64,000 nucleotides of DNA from an uncultured Coriobacteriaceae bacterium. Lineage in GTDB: Bacteria; Actinomycetota; Coriobacteriia; Coriobacteriales; Atopobiaceae. Below are positions 15,977 to 26,488 of this stretch, piece by piece (within the stretch, counting starts at the first letter, position 1; each line of letters opens with the position of its first letter). Below the pieces are notes generated by a model that was not told the origin of the DNA, ran no database searches, and saw nothing but the letters and a program-made list of their open reading frames with translations. A program made the position numbers and the translations under genes. The DNA is taken from NCBI GenBank assembly GCA_902790135.1, contig CADAQM010000005.1:84257-148256 (forward strand), given 5' to 3'.

Positions 15977-16507
15977 GTGGCACGAGCTAGCAGATTCAGG
16001 CTGGTCGAGGGTGGCGACAGCAAGCGGGACATGCATCGCGACTTCGAGCGCTATTACCGCGAAAGCTTCTCCATGGTCTATAACTACATTTTCCGCCGCG
16101 TGGGCAACCATACGGCCGCCGAGGACATCACCTCCGAGGCGTACCTGCGCGCCGCCCGCTACTTCTCCCGCTTCGATCCCACGCGTGCCAAGTTCTCCAC
16201 CTGGGTCATCTCGATTGCCAACAACTGCGTCAGTGACTACTTCTCGCGCACGCCCGAAAACGTCCCGATCGAGGACATCGCCGAGGGGGCCTACGCCGAG
16301 GAGGCCGAGACCGATCAGATTGGCGACGCCGAGCTCGCTTCGCAGCTACTTGCGACGCTCGACGACGAGGAGCGTCAGCTGGTATACCTCAAGTACTACG
16401 AACAGCTACGTAACACCGAAATCGCCCAGATCATGGGCATGAACGCATCGACAATATCAACCAAGCTCTCGCGCGCCATGGCCAAGATGCGCGCAGTAGC
16501 TTCTTAG
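15977..16507 (+). CDS. ECF-like RNA polymerase sigma factor
   Basis: 176 residues from a GTG with GAGG five bases upstream. Region 2 spans about residues 22-90 (FERYYRESFSMVYNYIFRRV, AAEDITSEAYLRAARYFSRF, FSTWVISIANNCVSDYFSR) and region 4 about 120-170 (LDDEERQLVYLKYYEQLRNTEIAQIMGMNASTIS). No region 3 is present, so it is sigma-70 group IV. No classical membrane anti-sigma gene follows; instead a STAS protein and a SpoIIE phosphatase/kinase follow, implying control by partner switching. It probably reads the shared promoters at 19.9 and 20.1 kb (inference). Confidence 0.88.
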   Translation: MARASRFRLVEGGDSKRDMHRDFERYYRESFSMVYNYIFRRVGNHTAAEDITSEAYLRAARYFSRFDPTRAKFSTWVISIANNCVSDYFSRTPENVPIEDIAEGAYAEEAETDQIGDAELASQLLATLDDEERQLVYLKYYEQLRNTEIAQIMGMNASTISTKLSRAMAKMRAVAS

Positions 16508-16527
16508 GAGACAGCAAGGAGCAAAGC

Positions 16528-16830
16528 ATGGACATCACCACCAATCTTGACGGCAACACGGGCGCCATTGCGGTCAAGGGCAAGCTCACCGTCGCCACGA
16601 GCCCCGAGCTCGAGGATGCCGTACGCCAGCTTGGCACGGGCGCGGTCAACTTTGACATCGACCTCTCCGAGCTCGAGTACATCTCCTCCGCAGGCCTGCG
16701 CGTGCTGGTCAGCACCCAGAAGCTTGCCATGCAGCGCGGTGGCTCCATCCGCCTGCTCCACCCGACCGCAGAGGTCACCGAGGTGTTTGAGATGACGGGA
16801 CTCTCCGAGGTCATGACCATCGTCAGCTAA
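16528..16830 (+). CDS. STAS-domain anti-sigma factor antagonist
   Basis: 100 residues, one STAS domain. The phosphorylation-site region EYISSAGLRVLVSTQK (residues ~50-65) matches SpoIIAA/RsbV, where the conserved serine is phosphorylated by an RsbW-type kinase and dephosphorylated by a PP2C phosphatase. It lies 20 bases after the sigma factor and 121 before the phosphatase/kinase gene, all in one direction, which supports one regulatory operon. AGGAG lies upstream of the ATG. Confidence 0.92.
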   Translation: MDITTNLDGNTGAIAVKGKLTVATSPELEDAVRQLGTGAVNFDIDLSELEYISSAGLRVLVSTQKLAMQRGGSIRLLHPTAEVTEVFEMTGLSEVMTIVS

Positions 16831-16951
16831 CGACAAGAGTCATCGCACTCAACCGAGACAAGCACTTCTCTCGCGTCAGGCACGCTCTCTTGGGGGTTAT
16901 CTCGCGTGAGAGGTGTTTGCCATTAGGCACAGGTATATCCGGGGAGACAGC

Positions 16952-19576
16952 ATGGCGGCGGCAGGGCAGGCCAACAAACGGGGCATAGGCAACCCGCTCA
17001 GGTGGAGGGGGCTCATGGGCGATGCGTCACGAGGCGCGCGCATCACCTCCATCGTGTTCCTCGTCATCCTGTCTTGCTCCATGGTCGCCACCCAGACCAA
17101 CTATCTCGTCATCGGAAGCACCCACGTCATCGCCGTACTGGCCCCCATCGCCGCAGGGTCGCTTCTGTTTGGCACCCTGCCCGGCACCATCATCGGGACC
17201 ATCGCGGGACTCGCCGAGATGCTCCACGCCACGCTGCTGCCTCTCGACGCCTACGAGGCATACTTTGCAGCACCAACCAACTCGGTGCTTCTCTTCGCGC
17301 TCATCGGCTTTGTGATGGGCGTGCTCTTTGCCATAGCCGACCGACGCCGTAACGAGCGGGGCGACCTGCAAGGCCTGCTCGTCCTGGCAAGCGCTTGCCT
17401 GATTGGGTCGGTGCTGTTCACGTTCGTGTTCTCGGTGTCGGTCAACGCCATCAACGACCTGCTCAACCTCACCGTTCCCAGCAACCTGCTCCACGACTTC
17501 ACCGGCAACCACGAGGTCGTCTCGCAGATCGTGGCCGACTTCGTCCTGATGATGGCTCTGTCCACCACTGCGGGAGCGCTCGACCGCAGCATCGAATCCC
17601 TCAAGGGCGAGCACACCCTGCGCGCCACCTTCCAGGGATGGCTGGCCGTGGTAGTCTCCATGGCCTACCTGGTCACGGCGGCACTGGGCTACACCTTCAT
17701 CAGCAGCTCTTGCCTGATGAGCGCAAACAACCAGATAAAGGGCCAGATTGACTATCTCACCGGGCAGCTCGAGCGCAGCGACCAGATGCTCGACGGCATC
17801 GCACGCCGCTCGCAGCTCTCCGAGAACCGCGTCGAGGAGCTGCACGATAGCACGATAGGCGGCATCGCCACCGGTCTTCCCCTCGGCGTGAACGGCATCT
17901 CCGTCATCGCCGAGAACGGCATCATCGTCTCGTCAAGCGAGGAGTCCTTCTTGGGGCAATCCTTTGAGGAGGTAGTCGGCAGTGGCCTTCAGGACGGCTT
18001 CGACGAGAGCATCTACGACCGCCCCATGGTGACGCGGTGGTACATGGGCGGCTCAAAGCTCGAATACCTGCGCGCAACCCAAGTGGGTTATGTGCGCGTG
18101 AGCAAGACGGGCAACTACCAGGTGATGGCCGCCCTTCCCGCAAGCGAGGTCTTTGCTTGGAGAAGCCGCATGATGATCGCGTTCTCCCTCGTGTTCGTCG
18201 CGCTGTTCGCAACCGTGTACGTTCAGGCGATGCTCCTGCTCAAGAACGTCGTGGTGCGCGGCATCGACGAGACCAACGCGACACTCAAGCTCATCACCCA
18301 AGGCGACCTCGACCAGCGCGTGAGCGTGAAGGACTCCGTGGAGTTCGTGAGCCTGTCCTCTGGCATCAACGCCACCGTCTCCGCGCTCAAGAACGCCATT
18401 GCCGAGGAGGCTGGACGCATCGACCGCGACCTCAGCACGGCGCGCTCCATCCAGGAGAGTGCCCTGCCTCAGACCTTCCCGCCCTTCCCCGAGGTCGACG
18501 CCTTTGACATCTACGCCAGCATGTCACCGGCGCGCGAGGTGGGCGGAGACTTCTACGACTTCTTCCTTCTGGACGACCACACGCTCGGCTTCCTCATCGC
18601 CGACGTATCCGGCAAGGGCATTCCGGCGTCACTGTTCATGATGGCGGCAAAGACCGAGCTGGCCAACTACATGAGCAGCGACATGGACCTCGCCGAAGCC
18701 ATCCAGACGGCAAACTGGCACCTCTGCCAGGGCAACGAAGCCGGCATGTTCGTGACCGTGTGGGCTGCCACGCTCGACTACGAGACGGGCGAGCTCACCT
18801 ACGTCAACGCCGGGCACAACCCGCCGATGCTGCGACACAACGGCAGATGGGACTGGCTCCAGTCGCGCGGAGGGCTCTTCTTGGGCATCTTCGACACGGC
18901 CAAGTTCCGTAGCAGCACCCTGAAACTAAGCCGTGGCGACCAGCTGCTGCTGTACACCGATGGTGTCACGGAGGCGTTCAACACCAGGGACGAGCAATAC
19001 GGAGGCCAGCGGCTCGAGGAGTTTCTCATGAGGCATACCGAGATGCACCCGCATGCGATAACCGATGCGCTGAAGGACGACGTCCACGCATGGGCAAACG
19101 GGACTGAGCAGTCCGACGACATCACGATCCTCTCGCTCGAGTACGGGATCGCTCCCGAGGTCAGGGGTTCCATCACGGTCGACGCCACGCTGGACCAACT
19201 CGACGACGTGCTTTCCTTCGTCCATGAGGAGCTCGGGAGGCGCCGCTGCCCCATCGTCGCGCAGAACCAGCTTGACGTGGCCATCGAGGAGCTGTTCGTC
19301 AACGTCTGCAACTACGCCTACGAGGGCTCTGACAGCCCAGGAACCTGCCGCGTCGAGTATATCTATCGTCCCGACCCCTCCACCATCACCGTCCAGATCA
19401 CCGACTGGGGCACACCGTTCAACCCGCTTGCCCAGGACGACCCGGACAAGCCCACCTCCATTGTCGACACCATGATCGGCGGTCTGGGCATCTTCATGGC
19501 AAAGCAGCTGACCGACGACATGAGCTACGTGCGCGACGGCAACGCGAATGTGGTCGCCATCAGCAAGAGCTGGTAG
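16952..19576 (+). CDS. Membrane sensor SpoIIE phosphatase fused to RsbW-like kinase domain
   Basis: 874 residues from the ATG at 16952 (SD GGGGAGA). The N-terminal half has about six membrane helices (first near residues 28-48, last near 405-430) around an extracytoplasmic sensor region, then a HAMP-like stretch (INATLKLITQGDLDQRVSV). A PP2C/SpoIIE phosphatase follows at ~500-710 (REVGGDFYDFF, FLIADVSGKGIPASLFM, YVNAGHNPP, LLYTDGVTEAFN, SDDITILSL). The last ~130 residues are a GHKL ATPase: IEELFVNVCNYAYEG (N box), DWGTPFNPL (G1) and GGLGIFMAKQL (G2). Thus one protein holds both the phosphatase that would dephosphorylate the STAS protein and the kinase/anti-sigma domain. The signal it senses is unknown. 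Confidence 0.92.
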   Translation: MAAAGQANKRGIGNPLRWRGLMGDASRGARITSIVFLVILSCSMVATQTNYLVIGSTHVIAVLAPIAAGSLLFGTLPGTIIGTIAGLAEMLHATLLPLDAYEAYFAAPTNSVLLFALIGFVMGVLFAIADRRRNERGDLQGLLVLASACLIGSVLFTFVFSVSVNAINDLLNLTVPSNLLHDFTGNHEVVSQIVADFVLMMALSTTAGALDRSIESLKGEHTLRATFQGWLAVVVSMAYLVTAALGYTFISSSCLMSANNQIKGQIDYLTGQLERSDQMLDGIARRSQLSENRVEELHDSTIGGIATGLPLGVNGISVIAENGIIVSSSEESFLGQSFEEVVGSGLQDGFDESIYDRPMVTRWYMGGSKLEYLRATQVGYVRVSKTGNYQVMAALPASEVFAWRSRMMIAFSLVFVALFATVYVQAMLLLKNVVVRGIDETNATLKLITQGDLDQRVSVKDSVEFVSLSSGINATVSALKNAIAEEAGRIDRDLSTARSIQESALPQTFPPFPEVDAFDIYASMSPAREVGGDFYDFFLLDDHTLGFLIADVSGKGIPASLFMMAAKTELANYMSSDMDLAEAIQTANWHLCQGNEAGMFVTVWAATLDYETGELTYVNAGHNPPMLRHNGRWDWLQSRGGLFLGIFDTAKFRSSTLKLSRGDQLLLYTDGVTEAFNTRDEQYGGQRLEEFLMRHTEMHPHAITDALKDDVHAWANGTEQSDDITILSLEYGIAPEVRGSITVDATLDQLDDVLSFVHEELGRRRCPIVAQNQLDVAIEELFVNVCNYAYEGSDSPGTCRVEYIYRPDPSTITVQITDWGTPFNPLAQDDPDKPTSIVDTMIGGLGIFMAKQLTDDMSYVRDGNANVVAISKSW

Positions 19577-19610
19577 GACGGGCACCGCATTCGGGCTCCA
19601 ATAACAGACG

Positions 19611-19645
19611 AGCGCCCCAGACCATCTGGCCTGGGGCGCTCTTTC
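19611..19645. terminator. Intrinsic terminator after the SpoIIE gene
   Basis: AGCGCCCCAG and CTGGGGCGCT form a perfect stem around ACCATCTGGC, followed by CTTTCGT. It ends the sigma-STAS-SpoIIE operon and also lies beyond the stop of the convergent peptide gene. Confidence 0.8.
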
Positions 19646-19690
19646 GTAACCCGCATCGCATGGATGCGGCGTCTCAACCAATGGGAAGGT

Positions 19691-19891
19691 CTACGGCCGC
19701 TTGAACGGGTCCTCCTCTAGAAAGGGGACGCCTGCCGCAGCCAGCATGTCGAGCTCGTCGTCCGCAAGCTCCATCCCCTGATCACCCTGATCCAGCTCGG
19801 CCAGGCAACGCTGCAGGAGATTCTCCTTGAAGGCCTGCTTGCCAACCGAATAGTCCCTCGACAGTACGCGCTCGATCATTTTGTCGTTCAT
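19691..19891 (-). CDS. Short peptide with double-glycine-like leader, candidate cargo of the NHLM exporter
   Basis: 66 residues from the ATG at 19891 (AAGGGG upstream); the in-frame extension to 20011 covers the promoter and is unlikely. The N-terminal ~50 residues are helical and acidic (IERVLSRDYSVGKQAFKENL, then GMELADDELDML), ending AAAG. The ELADDELDMLAAAG stretch (41-54) has the form of a C39-cleaved bacteriocin leader (ELs-eEL-x-hxGG) with AG in place of GG. Cleavage there would leave only VPFLEEDPFKRP, which has no Cys, Ser or Thr to modify. The gene lies beside a complete NHLM exporter. It may encode a bacteriocin, a signalling peptide or merely a leader-like regulator; cargo status is inferred. 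Confidence 0.65.
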   Translation of the reverse strand: MNDKMIERVLSRDYSVGKQAFKENLLQRCLAELDQGDQGMELADDELDMLAAAGVPFLEEDPFKRP

Positions 19892-19928
19892 GTCCGTCCC
19901 CTTACGCCGGAGTTTCTCGCTTTGCCAG

Positions 19929-19962
19929 TTAGTACTGCCGGCGCTCGCAGTCTGTCTCAAAC
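19929..19962 (-). promoter_or_regulatory. Shared-motif promoter of the peptide gene
   Basis: Reading the minus strand, GTTTGAGACA (19962-19953) is followed after 17 bp by GTACTAA (19935-19929), 38 bp before the ATG of the 66-residue peptide. The same 10-mer and a GTATTAA box occur upstream of the divergent membrane protein gene. Likely a -35/-10 pair for an alternative sigma factor. Confidence 0.5.
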
Positions 19963-20119
19963 TTTTCTCTATTTTATGCGACTCTGCAAAAGTTTTCTCG
20001 CCAAGCGTCAATCCGATACCACATCGGCAGAACTCTTGTTATGTCTGGCTAGCATTTTCGCAGGTAGATATATATGCCGACAACCACTCACACACCTTCT
20101 TTCGTACAATTCCAAGCTT

Positions 20120-20152
20120 GTTTGAGACAAAACGGCCGTGGGACTGTATTAA
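20120..20152 (+). promoter_or_regulatory. Shared-motif promoter of the membrane protein gene
   Basis: GTTTGAGACA (20120-20129) followed after 16 bp by GTATTAA (20146-20152), 67 bp before the ATG at 20220. It is the counterpart of the promoter at 19929-19962. The rest of the 328-bp gap between the two divergent genes is AT-rich and contains nothing else I can name. Confidence 0.5.
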
Positions 20153-20219
20153 GTTCGAAGTCAAAACGGGCACAAAGGCGCATGCAACTTGAGCGCCAAA
20201 ACAAAGAGGAGGAACATCC

Positions 20220-20867
20220 ATGAAATTCCAGAACGCATACAAAGGCATTGGCAAAATCTACCTGGCAGAGGTTCTCGAGCTTATCGGGGCAATTCTTTTG
20301 GGAATCGGCGTCGCCGCAGGCTTTTTCGGCATGAGAACCGAGGGGCAAGTCGAGGCGGCCGTCACCAGCAGTCTTGCGCTTGGAGCCTTTTTGGCCTTCC
20401 TGCCTGGCATTATCCTGCCGATTGTCAGCCTGATCCTCTCGATACTCGGTCTTAGCGAGGCGAGCAAGGACGAGCCCACTCAGCTGCGCACCGCCTTCAT
20501 CTCCTGCATCGGCGCACTTGCCTTCTCGGCCATCGCTGGCGTCATCGAGAGCGTCGGTGGCGCCCCCAACCTCATGAGCAGCCTCTTCGAGCTTCTCGCC
20601 ACCTTGGCCTCCCTGTTCGTCACGATTTTCACCATCGGCGGCATCAGCAAGCTCATGACCCGCATCGGTCGCAACGACCTCGTCAGCCGCGGCAACCAGA
20701 TTCTGTGGCTGCTCGTTGCAGCGCAGCTCGCCGAGCAGGTCGCCCGCATGCTTCCGCAGGGCACCCTCGTCAGCATCCTCGAGCTTGCCGCCATCATCTT
20801 CAGCACGGTCATGTGCATCATGTACCTCGGCTTCCTGCGCAACTCTCGCAACGCACTTGCCGCATAA
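20220..20867 (+). CDS. Integral membrane protein, possible immunity or accessory protein of the peptide system
   Basis: 215 residues with about five to six membrane helices (LIGAILLGIGVAAGFFGM, FLAFLPGIILPIVSLILSIL, FISCIGALAFSAIAGVI, FELLATLASLFVTIFTIGG, and a C-terminal SILELAAIIFSTVMCIMYLG). I do not recognise a family. A strong GAGGAGG precedes the ATG. It is divergent from the leader-peptide gene and shares its promoter motif, and it converges with the exporter operon. That position would suit an immunity or receptor protein, but only context supports this. Confidence 0.65.
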   Translation: MKFQNAYKGIGKIYLAEVLELIGAILLGIGVAAGFFGMRTEGQVEAAVTSSLALGAFLAFLPGIILPIVSLILSILGLSEASKDEPTQLRTAFISCIGALAFSAIAGVIESVGGAPNLMSSLFELLATLASLFVTIFTIGGISKLMTRIGRNDLVSRGNQILWLLVAAQLAEQVARMLPQGTLVSILELAAIIFSTVMCIMYLGFLRNSRNALAA

Positions 20868-20896
20868 CCTGCAGCTCACACAGCCAGCAACGCAAT

Positions 20897-20936
20897 GGGC
20901 GGGCGCATCCACAACCGGATGCGCCCGCCCTCTGTT
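20897..20936. terminator. Strong bidirectional intrinsic terminator
   Basis: GGGCGGGCGCATCC and GGATGCGCCCGCCC form a perfect 14-bp stem with loop ACAACC, followed by TCTGTTT. It separates the membrane protein gene from the convergent NHLM exporter operon. Confidence 0.85.
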
Positions 20937-20980
20937 TGCCTGTATCAGTTGCAGGGTTGCGTCGCCTGCCCGATGGATGC

Positions 20981-23167
20981 CTACTCCAGGCGCTGGCGCC
21001 TGACCAAGTCGGCAAAGAGGCCGTCATGGGCAATGAGCTCGTCGTAGCTACCCTCCTCGGCAATGTGGCCATCGTCCACCACGAGGATGCGGTCGCAGTG
21101 GCGCACGGTCGACAGGCGATGGGCCACCACTACACGCGTGCACTTGAGCTGGGCGAGAGAGTCTGAGACGTGCTTTTGGGTGACGTTGTCCAAGGCGCTC
21201 GTCGCCTCGTCGAGCATCAGGATGCGCCGGTCGCCGCACACGGCCCGGGCAATCATGATGCGCTGGCGCTGACCGCCCGACACGCCACCCGAGCCTTCGC
21301 TCAGGATCGTCTGCATGCCCATCGGCATCTGGCGGATGTCGTCCGCGATGCCTGCGATCTCAGCCGCCCGCCACGCATCGTCGATCGTCGAGCTCGGTGC
21401 CGCAATCGTGATGTTGGACGCGATGTCGCCCAAGAAGAGGCGACCGTCCTGCATGACCGAGCCGATCGACTGCCTCAGGCTCCTGAGGTCGATCTTGCTG
21501 ACATCGTAACGACCGTAGAAGATGCTCCCGCGCTCGGGCTTCTCGAAGCCCAGAAGCAGACGGATGATGGTCGACTTGCCACATCCGCTCTTGCCGACGA
21601 TGGCCACGTACTCGCCTGGGCGGATGTCAAAGGAGAGGTCCCTGAGCACGTAGGGGGACTTGTCGTCGTAGCGGAACGAAATGCCCGACACCGAGATGGC
21701 GCCGCTGAGCCTCTCCACACTGGGCTTGTCCTCCCCCACCTCGGGCAGCGTCTCGAGGATGGGTTTGACGACCTCAAGCGTGGGCCCGATCTGGGCAACC
21801 TGGCTCACCGTGCTGGAGAGCGACATCAGGGCGCCGGTCACCTGGCCAAAGGCCACACTGAAAGCCATGTAGTCGGCCACGCTCACCTCAGACGTTCCGG
21901 CAAGGTAATAGATGACGATCGAGCCCAGCATGCTGATGAAGGCAACGAAGGCCGGCAGCGCGCGCTCGATCGTGGGGCGGTTGTAGGTAGAACGGGCGTA
22001 GCCTGCGTACTGGTGGGCCCACTTGGCAAAGGCGCGATCCTCCGCTCCAGCAAGCTTGATCTTCTGGATGCCGTTCAGAAGCGCCGTCACCAGACCCGAG
22101 AGACGCGTGGACTCCTGCATCGCCTGATGCTGGCGCTTAGCCGAGATGACGGCCACCAGGACCGACAGCAACGCCTGCAGCACCGCAACCACCAGCGCGG
22201 GCACCGCCAGCACAGGGGCATACAGGGCGATCTGGCCGATGTACACCAGCGAGAGCACGCTCGTGAGGCCGGTCCCCAGCACGAGCGAAGTGAGCAGGTC
22301 GACGAGCAACGTTACCTGCGAGACGCGGCTCGCCAGGTTGCCCGATGCGTACTCCTTGAAGAAGGAGGTCGGCAGCAGGAGGATGCGCGAGAAGGTGGCC
22401 GCCTCGGTCGCGGTCTGGAGCTTTGTGGACACGCGGCCCATCACCAGGGTGCGCGAGATGCCAAACAGGGTGCTCGACAGGGCGACACCCAGAAGAAGCA
22501 TGCCGATAGGAAGGATGAGATTGGCTTGACCGCTTGGCACGACGGTGCCAAAGGCAATGCTGTTTGCCCAGGCGGGGAGGAGTCCGACCAGGGTGGAGAT
22601 GGCTGCCACCGCCATGACAAAGAGGTAGTCGCTGCGGTCGAGCACATGCATGATGTAGAGGAAGAGGCTGTTGACGCTCAGCTTCTCCAGCGGGAACGCG
22701 CGATAGAAGTAGACGGCTTCCGACTCGATGTGGGAGGCTGTGCTGGCATTGACCTTGCAGCGCCGCCCCGTATTGGGATCGTGATAGAAGTAGCCGCCCG
22801 ACGTGCGCGGGAGCAGCGCGACGGGCTCGCCCGTGTCAAGGCGCGCCATCATGACGCCGAAGGCGTCGCGATACCAGGCACCCTCGAGTCGCACCGTGCG
22901 ATGCATGGTGCCCGAAGGACGGCAGAGCCACTCCATGCGCGCCTCGAAGTCGGTCAGGCCATCGGGGGCCGTCCCAGGGGTCACGCCACAATAGCGAAGG
23001 CACGTACGCACAGCGCCATCTGCCAGCTCGAGGTCATCCACCCTGAAGCTGGGTGCGTTGCGCATGCCGCCCACACTCGCGGCAAGCTCCGCATACGAGC
23101 GCTCAAGCAGCTCGGCATCGAGCTCCTTGCGCATCTCAATCTGCGATTTCAGCCCAAAAAAGGCCAT
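20981..23167 (-). CDS. NHLM-type peptide export ABC transporter, peptidase-free subunit
   Basis: 728 residues from the ATG at 23167 (AGGGAAGG upstream). An N-terminal ~150-residue region without peptidase motifs is followed by six membrane helices (~170-430) and an ABC ATPase (~490-725): GKSGCGKSTIIRLLLG (Walker A), GGVSGGQRQRI (signature), ILMLDEATSALD (Walker B), VVVAHRLSTV (H loop). This is the second, non-proteolytic ABC protein that accompanies the C39 protein in NHLM (nitrile hydratase leader microcin) export systems. It forms the last gene of a three-gene exporter operon. Confidence 0.9.
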   Translation of the reverse strand: MAFFGLKSQIEMRKELDAELLERSYAELAASVGGMRNAPSFRVDDLELADGAVRTCLRYCGVTPGTAPDGLTDFEARMEWLCRPSGTMHRTVRLEGAWYRDAFGVMMARLDTGEPVALLPRTSGGYFYHDPNTGRRCKVNASTASHIESEAVYFYRAFPLEKLSVNSLFLYIMHVLDRSDYLFVMAVAAISTLVGLLPAWANSIAFGTVVPSGQANLILPIGMLLLGVALSSTLFGISRTLVMGRVSTKLQTATEAATFSRILLLPTSFFKEYASGNLASRVSQVTLLVDLLTSLVLGTGLTSVLSLVYIGQIALYAPVLAVPALVVAVLQALLSVLVAVISAKRQHQAMQESTRLSGLVTALLNGIQKIKLAGAEDRAFAKWAHQYAGYARSTYNRPTIERALPAFVAFISMLGSIVIYYLAGTSEVSVADYMAFSVAFGQVTGALMSLSSTVSQVAQIGPTLEVVKPILETLPEVGEDKPSVERLSGAISVSGISFRYDDKSPYVLRDLSFDIRPGEYVAIVGKSGCGKSTIIRLLLGFEKPERGSIFYGRYDVSKIDLRSLRQSIGSVMQDGRLFLGDIASNITIAAPSSTIDDAWRAAEIAGIADDIRQMPMGMQTILSEGSGGVSGGQRQRIMIARAVCGDRRILMLDEATSALDNVTQKHVSDSLAQLKCTRVVVAHRLSTVRHCDRILVVDDGHIAEEGSYDELIAHDGLFADLVRRQRLE

Positions 23168-23210
23168 GCGCACCTTCCCTTCGGTGCGGTCCGTACGCAG
23201 GGACCGCCCT

Positions 23211-25376
23211 CTAGTCACTCCTCACAAGCTCGGCATAGGCACCGTCTTTTGCCAACAACTCGTCATGCGTGCCGCGCTCCAGCACCTTGCCCTGGTCGAG
23301 CACGATAATCTCGTCACAGTCCCTGATGGTCGAGAGGCGATGCGCCACCACTATGCAGGTGATCTCGCGGTTGCGAATCCGCCTGATGACCTCGGCTTCG
23401 GTCTGCGCATCAAGAGCGCTTGTCGCTTCGTCCAGAATGATGACCGTGGGATCCTGCGCCAGCACGCGCGCAATCTCCAGCCGCTGCAGCTGACCACCGG
23501 AGAAGTTCTTGCCGCCAGGCAGGATGCGGCTCTCGTAGCCACCCTCGCGCTCTGCGATGACCTGATGGATGTCCGCGTCACGGCAGGCCATGATGACCTC
23601 GTAGTCCTCTATGGACTTGTCCCACAGCTTCACGTTCTGGTTCACCGTATCGTCGAAGGTGACGATGTCCTGGTCGACCACGGCAAGCGACCCGCGCAGC
23701 ACCGAGCGCGGAATCTCCTCCAGCGGGGCGCCGTCAAAGCGGATCTCCCCGCCCCACGGCTTGTAGAGCCCGGAGACGATCTTGGCGATGGTGGACTTCC
23801 CACAGCCCGACGACCCCACGAGCGCAACCCATTGCCCTGGCTCGAGATGCAGGTCGAAGTTCTCGATGAGCGGCTTGTCCAGTGGAGAGTAGCCAAAGGT
23901 GACCTTGTCCAGATCCACCGCCCCACGCAGCTTCTCGCGACCAAAGGCGGATGCCGCATCGATCTCCTCGTCCAGCGACGATTCCTCGGGGACGTCGCTC
24001 TCGTAGCGCATGACGTCCTCGACGCGCTCGACCTGGGTCTGCATCTCCTGCACCGTCTGCCCCAACCCAATGAGCTGGGTCACCGGCGCCATGAAGGACC
24101 CCAAGAAGCCCTGGAAGGCCAGAAGCGCGCCAGGCGTGAATCCTCGCGCGACGATGAGCCAGATGCCCACCAGAAGCACTGCGATATTGCTGAGCTGCGA
24201 GAGGATCGTAGGCACGGCACCCAGGTACTCGTTGATGGCGGTCATGCGCGCGTTGCCATCGGTGACGTTTGCCTGGTAGCCCGCCCAGCGCTGGAAGTAG
24301 CCGGTCTCGGCACCCGCTGCCTTGATGGTCTCGATCATGTCCACGCCTGCGACGGTTGCGGCATACAGCTTGCCGGAGTCGGTGACGACGGAGCGCGCCA
24401 CGTTTACGCGCTTGTCTGAGATGTAGCGTGCGACCAAGGCGTCAAGCACCACCGTCACGATGCCAACCAGCGTGAGCACCAGGCTGTAGCGCACCATGAT
24501 GGCCAGATAGAGCACGAGCATGACCGAGTTGATGAGAACGGGCGCCAGCTGCCCGACAAGCGAGAAGGCGATGGTCTCGTTTGCCGCCTGACGCTGCTGG
24601 AGGTCGCCCACCATGCGCTGCGAGTAGAAGTTCATCGGCAGGTGCAGCAGGTGACGCATGAAGCGCGAGGACGACACCACGGCCAGCTTTCCCTGGATGT
24701 TCACCAGATAGACCGCATTGAGCACGTTGACTATGGTCAAAAGCACCGCGATGAGCGCCATGACCATCGTGAGGGGCACCAGCCACTCGGGATTGTTCCC
24801 GGAGAGCACGTGGTCGAGGAAGACGCGGCTGAGCGAGGTGTTGAAGATGCCAAGAAGCGACGAGATGGCTGCGGTCGTCATCACAAAGGCGATGGCAGGC
24901 CCCAACCCGGCAAGGTACGCCAGCGAGGACTTGAGGCCCGAGGGCGGCTCTCCACCTCTCTCGAAGGCATCGGTCGGCTCGAAGACCAGCGCGATGCCCG
25001 TGAAGGACTTGTTGAAGTCGTCGAGGGTGACCCGCACCTGGCCGCGTGCCGGGTCATTGAGGTAGGCGTACTTGCCCTTTATGCCACGCAGCACCACAAA
25101 GTGATTGAAGTTCCAGAAGATGATGCAGGGATAGGGCGAACGCTTTGCCAGGGCATTCACCGAGAAGGACATGCCCTTCGCGGCAAGGCCGTAGCTACGC
25201 GCCGCCGCAAGAACGTTGCTCGCCTTGCTGCCGTCGCGCGAGACGCCGCAGTCCGCACGCACCTGCTCGAGGGGAACCCAGCGCCCATAGTAGGCAAGGA
25301 TCATGGTCAGGCAGGCCGCTCCGCACTCGAGGGCCTCCATCTGCATGACCTGTGGAACCTTGGGCAACCTGCTCAC
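23211..25376 (-). CDS. NHLM-type C39 peptidase / ABC transporter
   Basis: 721 residues. The first ~130 form a C39 peptidase: QMEALECGAACLTMIL with catalytic Cys18, NHFVVLRG with the His, then YAYLNDPARG with the Asp. Six membrane helices follow (~165-430), then an ABC ATPase: GSSGCGKSTIAKIVSG, FSGGQLQRLEIAR, VIILDEATSALD, CIVVAHRLSTI. It would cut leader peptides after a double-glycine-like site while exporting the core. It overlaps the end of the HlyD-like gene by four bases, so both are translated together. All catalytic residues are present. Confidence 0.93.
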   Translation of the reverse strand: MSRLPKVPQVMQMEALECGAACLTMILAYYGRWVPLEQVRADCGVSRDGSKASNVLAAARSYGLAAKGMSFSVNALAKRSPYPCIIFWNFNHFVVLRGIKGKYAYLNDPARGQVRVTLDDFNKSFTGIALVFEPTDAFERGGEPPSGLKSSLAYLAGLGPAIAFVMTTAAISSLLGIFNTSLSRVFLDHVLSGNNPEWLVPLTMVMALIAVLLTIVNVLNAVYLVNIQGKLAVVSSSRFMRHLLHLPMNFYSQRMVGDLQQRQAANETIAFSLVGQLAPVLINSVMLVLYLAIMVRYSLVLTLVGIVTVVLDALVARYISDKRVNVARSVVTDSGKLYAATVAGVDMIETIKAAGAETGYFQRWAGYQANVTDGNARMTAINEYLGAVPTILSQLSNIAVLLVGIWLIVARGFTPGALLAFQGFLGSFMAPVTQLIGLGQTVQEMQTQVERVEDVMRYESDVPEESSLDEEIDAASAFGREKLRGAVDLDKVTFGYSPLDKPLIENFDLHLEPGQWVALVGSSGCGKSTIAKIVSGLYKPWGGEIRFDGAPLEEIPRSVLRGSLAVVDQDIVTFDDTVNQNVKLWDKSIEDYEVIMACRDADIHQVIAEREGGYESRILPGGKNFSGGQLQRLEIARVLAQDPTVIILDEATSALDAQTEAEVIRRIRNREITCIVVAHRLSTIRDCDEIIVLDQGKVLERGTHDELLAKDGAYAELVRSD

Positions 25377-25879
25377 TGCATGTCTCCCAAGACCAGGGAG
25401 ATCGGTGCGATGCGAGCGGTGGTGATGCTCACCGTCACGGGCACGCCCTCGCCTTCCAGGGAGGCGCCCTCAAGTACGACCAGATAACCCCACTCGCCAG
25501 GCATGAGCGCCTCTACGAGGTAGTCATTGGAAAGGAAGCTTTTTGTCTCGGCAGATGACAGGGGAACCTCGCTTATCCGTGCCACACGCGCCTGCTGGTT
25601 CCCGACATAGGCGGAATCGCCCTCATGCACCTGGGCCACCTGCTCGCCGTCCAGCATGCAGTACACCTTGCCGTTAAGGCTCGCGCCCGTCGTCGAGACG
25701 CTCGCAGAGACCGATCCGAAAATGCCCCATGCCAGAAGGCCCACCGACAGGACAAAGACGGCAAACAGCACCATCCAGACGCCAGGGGTCGTAGCCCGCA
25801 GATATCGGTCAAGGTCATCGGGACTGCGCAGACGTTCGACCGCCTGCTTATTGAAGATGGAGGAACCATCGCCAGCCAT
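25373..25879 (-). CDS. HlyD-like NHLM secretion protein, short
   Basis: 168 residues from the ATG at 25879 with GAGGAGGGG upstream. One membrane helix (VWMVLFAVFVLSVGLLAWGI, about residues 33-52) follows a cytoplasmic N-terminus containing NKQAVERLRSPDDLDRYLR, a stretch typical of NHLM secretion proteins. The external part is a short barrel-sandwich-like domain (GKVYCMLDGEQVAQVHEGDSAYV). It lacks the long coiled coil of classical HlyD, as expected in a single-membrane cell. It heads the exporter operon. Confidence 0.85.
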   Translation of the reverse strand: MAGDGSSIFNKQAVERLRSPDDLDRYLRATTPGVWMVLFAVFVLSVGLLAWGIFGSVSASVSTTGASLNGKVYCMLDGEQVAQVHEGDSAYVGNQQARVARISEVPLSSAETKSFLSNDYLVEALMPGEWGYLVVLEGASLEGEGVPVTVSITTARIAPISLVLGDMQ

Positions 25880-26014
25880 CGGTCGTCCCCTCCTCGTAGG
25901 TTCGAATAGCTGTGCGAGATGCACTGCCCGTATTGCACGAGCATAACGCATCCGCCCGATACAGGCAGGCAGAAGTAGGCGCGAGGGCCTTTGGGCTAGA
26001 CCACGAGGGCAGTT

Positions 26015-26488
26015 CTAGACGAGGCCAAGCGAGGCAAGGAAATCGTCAAAGAGACGGGCGGCCGTCGCTGCATTGCTCTTGCGACCGTAGCAGTAGAGCG
26101 TGTAGGTGCACGCCTCATGCTTGAACACAAGCGCCTTTGCCACCTGGTCGACGCCCTGCATCCGGTAGGCGAATTCGACTCCCCATGCGGTCTCGCCACA
26201 GACCGCAATCTGGTAGAGCTCGCCATCCTCGTAGCCCATGTCCTTGTACGCCTTGCGTGCCTGGGTCTGCACGCGCTTGGTCAGGCTTTTGGTATCGACC
26301 AGCTTCGAGAGCAGCGCGTTGGCCTGATGCCACTGCACGGAGATGATGACATGGTGGCGCTTGTCCCAGATGGCCCAGAGGTTCTCGCCGCCGGTGGGAA
26401 AGACCTTCTGCCTCTCCGCCTCGTCCATGACGCGGAACCCCTTGGGGTAGGACACGGACAGCCTGTCATTCAGAAGCGCCTTTGCCAT
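26015..26488 (-). CDS. Hypothetical protein, unrecognised
   Basis: 157 residues from the ATG at 26488 (GAGGGGG upstream). Alternating strands and helices: LSVSYPKGFRVMDEAERQKVF, AIWDKRHHVIISVQWHQ, then ETAWGVEFAYRMQGVDQVAKALVFKHEACTYTLYCYG and a final helix. The layout loosely resembles PsbP/Mog1-like folds, but I cannot place it. There is no signal peptide. It follows the NUDIX gene by ten bases and precedes the exporter by 135, so it belongs to the NUDIX transcript or leads into the exporter. Confidence 0.6.
   Translation of the reverse strand: MAKALLNDRLSVSYPKGFRVMDEAERQKVFPTGGENLWAIWDKRHHVIISVQWHQANALLSKLVDTKSLTKRVQTQARKAYKDMGYEDGELYQIAVCGETAWGVEFAYRMQGVDQVAKALVFKHEACTYTLYCYGRKSNAATAARLFDDFLASLGLV

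Follow-up and report, generated by a model that had tools for sequence, protein, structure and literature searches.

The 64,000-nucleotide stretch of DNA analyzed here (the window) comes from an uncultured Coriobacteriaceae bacterium (GenBank assembly GCA_902790135.1, contig CADAQM010000005.1, positions 84,257 to 148,256), the genome of which amounts to 2.72 Mb in 65 contigs and is referred to as G000; other G-numbers denote genomes and L-numbers the loci examined. At positions 15977 to 25951 the window carries an island composed of an extracytoplasmic function (ECF) sigma factor (SIG), a STAS protein, a SpoIIE-HATPase protein, a small peptide precursor (PEP), a membrane protein (MEMB) and an NHLM exporter. 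The original prediction, made from the sequence, had named all of these genes and joined them, on the grounds of adjacency and a shared promoter motif, into one system in which the sigma circuit turns on a secreted peptide. The analysis confirmed that every gene named is present, and the features are as follows (aa, amino acids; TM, transmembrane).

15977 to 16507, plus strand: SIG, an ECF sigma factor of 176 aa (TIGR02937, 91.2 bits against a cut-off of 42.9)
16528 to 16830, plus strand: STAS anti-anti-sigma protein (TIGR00377, 71.7 bits against a cut-off of 53.45), serine motif ISSAGLRVL
16913 to 19576, plus strand: SpoIIE-HATPase, a fusion of a membrane SpoIIE-type PP2C phosphatase and an RsbW-like HATPase kinase (PF07228, 170.6; PF13581, 81.1)
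19691 to 19891, minus strand: PEP, a 66-aa precursor with a 54-aa leader ending in AAAG and a 12-aa tail, VPFLEEDPFKRP
19928 to 19960, minus strand: promoter-like element of PEP, TTGAGACA-N18-TACTAAC (matrix score 19.8, rank 2 in the window)
20122 to 20153, plus strand: promoter-like element of MEMB, TTGAGACA-N17-TATTAAG (matrix score 22.5, rank 1 in the window)
20220 to 20867, plus strand: MEMB, a 215-aa membrane protein with about five hydrophobic or TM segments
20981 to 23218, minus strand: ABC2, the NHLM ABC transporter without peptidase (TIGR03797, 712.1 against a cut-off of 709.4)
23211 to 25376, minus strand: ABC1, the NHLM ABC transporter with C39 peptidase (TIGR03796, 929 against a cut-off of 853.3)
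25373 to 25951, minus strand: a short HlyD-like subunit with one TM segment (TIGR03794, 36.5 bits against a cut-off of 156.2)
26015 to 26488, minus strand: a 157-aa protein, a possible but weakly indicated associate, with relatives near PEP or the exporter elsewhere

The switch, the exporter and the peptide precursor

SIG was found to contain sigma regions 2 and 4 only, without region 3 (PF04542 and PF08281). The SpoIIE phosphatase, the HATPase kinase and STAS stand in one operon-like row, and the PP2C, HATPase and STAS domains, like the C39 and ABC domains, have the residues that active forms are expected to carry. SpoIIE-HATPase has seven hydrophobic segments, all of them before residue 432, and its structure model (pLDDT 77.6, pTM 0.47) is laid out as membrane helices, an alpha/beta domain at about residues 300-415, a long helix, the PP2C domain and the HATPase domain, with residues 359-390 below pLDDT 50; the alpha/beta domain looks Cache-like in this model. 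The top structure, both by Foldseek and by sequence, was 3ke6 (RsbU-RsbW of Rv1364c). In ABC1 the C39-type residues ECGAAC, HFVVL and NDPA are present. The exporter had been predicted to be full, which held for its two ABC proteins but not for its HlyD-like subunit of 192 aa, which remained below the cut-off and reached TIGR03794 at positions 1-51 of 421 only; relatives of this subunit adjoin the other mapped Coriobacteriales exporters.

For PEP a long minus-strand open reading frame (ORF) was considered and rejected, the ATG at 19891 being taken as the start instead. The 49 members of the PEP family, the window's included, share 34% mean column identity; in their alignment A52 and A53 are invariant and L47, L50 and G54 are kept in at least 90%. 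The leucine-spaced end of the leader fits substrates of C39 peptidases, and the same pattern occurs in Nif11-type leaders of these genomes. Of the predicted double-glycine-like leader, the peptide and its leader were borne out, while the leader ends in AAAG and not in GG. The tails that follow AAAG or its variants are 8-29 aa long, and contain cysteine in six of the 49 members, and acidic residues outnumber basic ones in 36; in the tails of two close relatives VP(F/Y)LxExPF is kept and the ends are changed. The structure model of PEP (pLDDT 74.5, pTM 0.34) has three helices and a low-confidence tail. In Pfam and NCBIfam none of the 49 members matched a family at better than E 0.03, and the leader models of NHLP and Nif11 were not matched by PEP either. 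Since G000 holds one NHLM ABC1 and showed no Nif11-type leader (TIGR03798) at E<=0.01, PEP is the sole candidate substrate of the exporter found in its own genome, in a search that covered Nif11-type leaders. A TIGR03798 match was present in 21 of the 24 PEP-bearing genomes searched.

PEP and SIG in genomes of the class

We searched 396 genomes of the class with a 10-row PEP alignment, which gave 37 genomes, from which three weak ones (G150, G145 and G174, E 0.001-0.007) were removed, as was one place, in G340:C2, where the match is a Nif11-type peptide (L206). From 58 matches to the PEP model 49 distinct PEPs were kept, after removal of four ORFs below 40 bits and of repeated sequences. SIG forms a clade of its own in the same 396 genomes, with 37 places of at least 205.9 bits in 34 genomes and the next ECF factor at 112.7; the profile was built from 36 SIGs adjoining PEP, and 10 of the 37 places lay outside that alignment. 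The 34 genomes with SIG are exactly the 34 genomes with PEP, and no PEP-less genome came near the score of the SIG clade. PEP lies within 5 kb at 34 of the 37 SIG places and SIG accompanies PEP at 34 of 38 PEP places. PEP is a new family, and it is inseparable from one ECF clade. No second constant neighbor of SIG besides PEP was seen in the SIG neighborhoods examined.

Among the 49 PEP places SIG was found within 5 kb in 43, ABC1 within 10 kb in 22, a partner-switch gene within 10 kb in 20, and all three in 15. The six places without SIG are L157 (a SIG fragment at the contig end), L201 (a 3.2-kb contig), L180 (where a second PEP stands some 8 kb away from SIG), L169, L190 and L194. A recurring order elsewhere, on a single strand, is PEP-SIG-HlyD-ABC1-ABC2-STAS-SpoIIE, from which the window differs in that PEP is divergent from MEMB, and in other families the same parts stand in different gene orders. 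The 21 named loci of PEP relatives all come from metagenome-assembled Coriobacteriales (11 Coriobacteriaceae, 4 Atopobiaceae, 2 Olsenella, 2 Eggerthellaceae and 2 Coriobacteriales), and the record titles name deer, goat or sheep gut as the source of several PEP-bearing genomes.

The exporter and the switch follow PEP at the level of the genome. NHLM ABC1 was found in 45 of the 140 genomes of the own family (E 1e-200), and 80 stretches around the listed ABC1 matches, from which mostly the weakest were omitted, made up 81 loci with the window. An NHLM exporter is present in 33 of the 34 PEP-bearing genomes, the 34th having a fragment: ABC1 was found in all 21 of the own family and in 12 of 13 at order level, where the 13th (G293) has the fragment at a contig edge. 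By comparison ABC1 was found in 14 of 40 PEP-less genomes of the order, these 40 being the ones listed in the PEP, SIG or SpoIIE-HATPase searches. Likewise, the SpoIIE-HATPase clade (at least 850 bits, a limit that was set after seeing the list) occurred in 30 of the 34 PEP-bearing genomes against 7 of the 362 others, with only two candidates per genome scored and a profile that includes members from exporter loci, e.g. G058. The comparison of neighborhoods in other Coriobacteriia, which the original prediction had proposed as a check, was positive, as SIG was found in 10 of the 81 own-family exporter loci and the same 10 have PEP. Taken together, the joining of these genes into one system is supported by genome comparison, more strongly at the level of genomes than of neighborhoods. 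In L162/L185 PEP and SIG stand with remnants of 31 aa (HlyD-like) and 69 aa (ABC2-like), and the exporter seems to have been deleted in place or lost in assembly.

The promoter element and its candidate regulon

Upstream of PEP lies an ECF-type promoter, KTGRGAC-N17/18-TATWA, and the consensus of 44 aligned sites is TTGAGACG-N-GCGTATAA. For the promoter model PEP starts were trimmed where the ORFs begin too early (the window, L044 and L049). In leave-one-out scoring, which removes a single row so that near relatives remain in training, the upstream element exceeded the top-1% level of the 1719 control regions in 44 of the 49 PEPs and the top-0.1% level in four; we suspect that the highest-scoring controls perhaps overlap the same promoters. 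The five PEPs below the top 1% are L108 (12.5 against 12.58), L173, L201, the second PEP of L180, and L191, which has a site of 20.2 further upstream. The median fit of the motif was 19.4 on true PEP upstream regions against 8.7-9.7 on eight control sets of equal size.

In the window's genome the pattern GTTTGAGACA-N16-18-TAYTAA, written from the two window sites themselves, had no third match in 2.72 Mb (backward control 0). When the window was scanned with the weight matrix, the MEMB and PEP sites took the first two ranks, the next unrelated site scored 14.6, and three shuffled copies gave no score of 18 or above. The shared promoter motif is indeed real, as the same two sites were found by the whole-genome pattern and by the ranking with the matrix. 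A stricter pattern gave five matches in G000 (control 1) and the same number in G132, a close relative (control 0). The two genomes share two further matches, of which one precedes a 47-aa frame that includes a small membrane segment and the other an alanine-lysine-rich surface-type protein; no good ORF follows the strict-pattern match at C19 of G000. At C48 of G000, near 2053 (L228), an alanine-glutamate-lysine-rich surface-type protein follows a motif match, and its frame near the start differs from that of the relative L225, as if shifted.

Canonical glycine-leader peptides follow matches in three other genomes (L213, L214 and L216). We compared ORFs around TIGR03798 matches that passed a leader regular expression and a ribosome-site filter, from 74 loci read on the side of PEP-bearing genomes and 26 on the control side, which are part of the places listed. 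G009 and G046, intended as controls, carry PEP (L108 and L079), and four of their loci were moved to the PEP-bearing side before counting. The motif preceded 27 of 68 other glycine-leader peptides on the PEP-bearing side, compared with 2 of 25 control peptides (Fisher P 0.005, Mann-Whitney P 2e-6). When 125 loci were scanned at a score of 17, we obtained 60 distinct sites, compared with 18 when the sequence was reversed and 13 when it was shuffled. By our own reading 37 of the 60 precede PEP, most of them being training sites, and the other 23 precede eight glycine-leader ORFs, two MEMB, two lipoproteins, one radical-SAM protein, one SIG and, in nine cases, nothing clear. In L011, L039 and L042 glycine-leader proteins of about 100 aa with a conserved body, CNVI..ACLTLRKTP..GWYFAY, each follow a strong motif match and are perhaps a larger export cargo.

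With regard to the neighboring genes, MEMB had no family match over cut-off and was found in only three of the 49 PEP loci, the motif being kept in both relatives, L044 and L049. The 157-aa protein has relatives in L045 and L049; in L190 a relative lies close to PEP, and in L095 one follows a motif match (17.2). A radical-SAM family (PF04055, one member scanned) adjoins PEP-SIG in L108, L157, L188 and L203, with a similar partial ORF in L172/L177, and an ORF of L108 that is similar to this family has a motif match 33 bases upstream; these neighbors suggest peptide modification in some relatives. Two families of a kind often used in peptide sensing adjoin PEP-SIG in L184, L186 and L191; one is a histidine kinase (PF06580 in L186), the other a response regulator (PF00072 in L184). 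Another family lies near PEP-SIG in L174, L193, L197 and L179, its L174 member being a sodium-dicarboxylate symporter in which one stretch is weakly HATPase-like. In L255, L265, L270, L290, L305 and L319 we noticed Nif11-type peptides with a near-identical tail, WSCxSFGERSDCHLNQWYE, which is unusual for a family with variable cores.

Interpretation and closest known systems

NHLM exporters and their glycine-leader peptides have been recognized in genomes but, to our knowledge, what switches them on is mostly not known. The explanation that we favor, with a probability of roughly 0.62, is that of an ECF sigma regulon for exported peptides under the control of a partner switch. SpoIIE-HATPase, as a membrane protein, would sense something outside the cell. 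By analogy with the RsbU/V/W family, its kinase half would phosphorylate STAS and should keep SIG inactive, and its phosphatase half would dephosphorylate STAS, which would then free SIG. To judge from the motif, SIG may transcribe its own neighbor PEP; in the present genome MEMB and perhaps a few envelope genes would be added, and in related genomes further glycine-leader peptides. The NHLM exporter ABC1/ABC2 would recognize the leader end ELADDELDML, cut after AAAG and export the tail, as the C39 residues and the shared leader end suggest. For PEP itself we tentatively propose, as the likeliest role although on its own somewhat less than an even bet, that of an extracellular signal which reports the state of the exporter or of the population, because the tails are short, variable, free of cysteine in 43 of 49 members and acidic in 36, and because 46 of the 49 PEP loci are without MEMB, the sole candidate immunity gene seen in the window. 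The sensor domain of SpoIIE as the receptor of the tail is a candidate only.

Several observations weigh against the favored explanation. Neither exporter nor switch stands beside a SIG-bearing PEP in 19 of the 49 PEP places, and 71 of the 81 exporter loci are without SIG, several contigs being short; since the parts are separated at these places, the fixed unit is PEP with SIG, and the exporter and the switch are usually in the same genome and may lie apart. The original prediction had taken independent occurrence of the regulators and the exporter as grounds for abandoning the link, and such separation is indeed found in neighborhoods, while co-occurrence at genome level holds. The last leader residue of PEP is G in 46 of 49 members and is preceded by A, so that these leaders depart from the rule for C39 substrates, which is G at -2 and G or A at -1, A at -2 being unusual. 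Upstream of the window's exporter operon and of SIG no motif match of 12 or above was found, and the matrix that ranked the window sites was trained on PEP promoters, including the window's PEP site and not the MEMB site. With the strict pattern 21 matches were obtained in 18 PEP-bearing genomes against 10 for its control; eight of the 18 had none, so that the pattern is too strict for many of them. In the glycine-leader test both positive controls come from G004, which is 73% complete and of unknown PEP status (0 of 22 without it), and the remaining 22 controls come from few genera and mostly have another leader type, so that the comparison is unmatched. The 23 strong sites not before PEP are a small excess, close to chance, over the 18 and 13 of the controls, and it is the kind of gene rather than the number of sites that speaks for function. 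The profiles are partly circular, the SIG and SpoIIE alignments being drawn from PEP or exporter loci, and the co-occurrence counts are uncorrected for kinship, related genomes not being independent. Partner switching is, moreover, not the standard control of ECF sigma factors.

It may be argued that the exporter itself controls the sigma factor, PEP being an export-coupled anti-sigma factor or co-factor, like FlgM without a flagellum, whose N-terminal helices bind SIG until trimming and removal by the C39 exporter free it, the partner switch adding a second lock. The order motif-PEP-SIG would then be the usual operon of an autoregulated ECF sigma/anti-sigma pair. PEP alone accompanies SIG at nearly every place, even without a nearby switch gene, its model has three predicted helices, and over 36 loci its N-terminal distances track SIG distances with a rho of 0.79, against 0.04 for the C39-site block. 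Samples of 15 columns from the PEP N-terminus gave a median of 0.69 and a minimum of 0.45. When ABC1, ABC2, STAS and SpoIIE were controlled for in turn, partial PEP-SIG correlations of 0.28, 0.48, 0.60 and 0.67 persisted, while those of PEP with these partners fell to at most 0.06 (for ABC2, 0.48 against 0.03). On the other hand, linked genes share a tree without touching, and within two genera, where the N-terminus gave 0.76 and 0.63 (0 of 500 permutations each), the C39 block also correlated somewhat (0.24 and 0.40). Across the 16 ABC1-bearing loci the correlation of PEP with SIG was only 0.36 (partial 0.28, with 10 of 1000 permutations as high; PEP-ABC1 dropped to 0.06), and with HlyD controlled it was 0.14 against 0.21 for HlyD. 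Moreover, the HATPase domain already offers an anti-sigma factor, and PEP has its promoter and leader end in common with ordinary glycine-leader peptides. The correlation shows joint inheritance, and it fits contact without proving it; we regard this explanation as unlikely.

An improbable alternative is that PEP is a small bacteriocin-like effector and MEMB its self-protection in this lineage. The two genes are divergent with the same promoter element, and the exporter families are named peptide or bacteriocin exporters, but MEMB is rare among PEP loci, no modification enzyme was seen among the island genes, and the short, mostly acidic tails are not of the cationic or hydrophobic kind that is usual for such peptides. 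That an envelope-stress sigma module merely lies beside an unrelated exporter appears very improbable: although SIG and PEP are often apart from the exporter and envelope-type proteins follow the two motif places that G000 and G132 share, SIG, PEP, SpoIIE-HATPase and the exporter co-occur at genome level and the motif precedes other exporter-type substrates.

The favored regulon matters since one sigma clade, one promoter and a near-constant peptide partner would amount to a testable control circuit for secreted peptides in gut Coriobacteriales. Should PEP prove to be a signal, or else an anti-sigma factor that is exported, this would be a new way of tying gene expression to peptide export, and if the exporter controls the sigma factor, exportable peptides would be made only when the export line is open. 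The exporter and the switch are of known kinds, and the pair of ECF factor and PEP with its putative rule over glycine-leader peptides was not found described; in a literature search with thin coverage of subscription papers no paper linked NHLM with SpoIIE or partner switching.

Among known systems, the window's ABC1 and ABC2 are like those of the NHLM/NHLP export system (TIGR03794, TIGR03796, TIGR03797), being above the curated cut-offs. In Haft 2010 (PMC2887384), Nif11-type peptides are described beside the NHLM transport cluster, also in Eggerthella lenta, and the word 'sigma' is absent from its main text. The window differs from that system in its short HlyD-like subunit and in a PEP that lies outside the NHLP and Nif11 leader models. 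With RsbU/RsbV/RsbW and the Rv1364c fusion the island shares PP2C-SpoIIE, HATPase and STAS with the expected motifs, and the order of phosphatase and kinase is that of 3ke6; it differs in its multi-TM sensor and in a linked sigma factor of the ECF and not of the SigB/SigF type, which is the usual one for partner switches. The SIG profile matched 5wuq, an ECF factor of the SigW kind, at 7e-23, second after 6dxo, and the promoter TGRGAC-N-CGTATAA resembles the SigW type, but SIG is a distinct clade whose near-constant neighbor is PEP instead of a known anti-sigma factor. FlgM, an export-coupled anti-sigma factor of the flagellar apparatus, is comparable as a small and apparently exportable protein tied to a sigma factor; PEP differs in that its exporter would be a C39 ABC exporter, it has no known homology to FlgM, and its binding to SIG is putative. 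Finally, the island resembles double-glycine peptide pheromones in its C39 exporter, its short variable tail and its apparent positive promoter feedback, and it departs from them in having AAAG for GG and, in place of a two-component receptor in the window, a partner switch.

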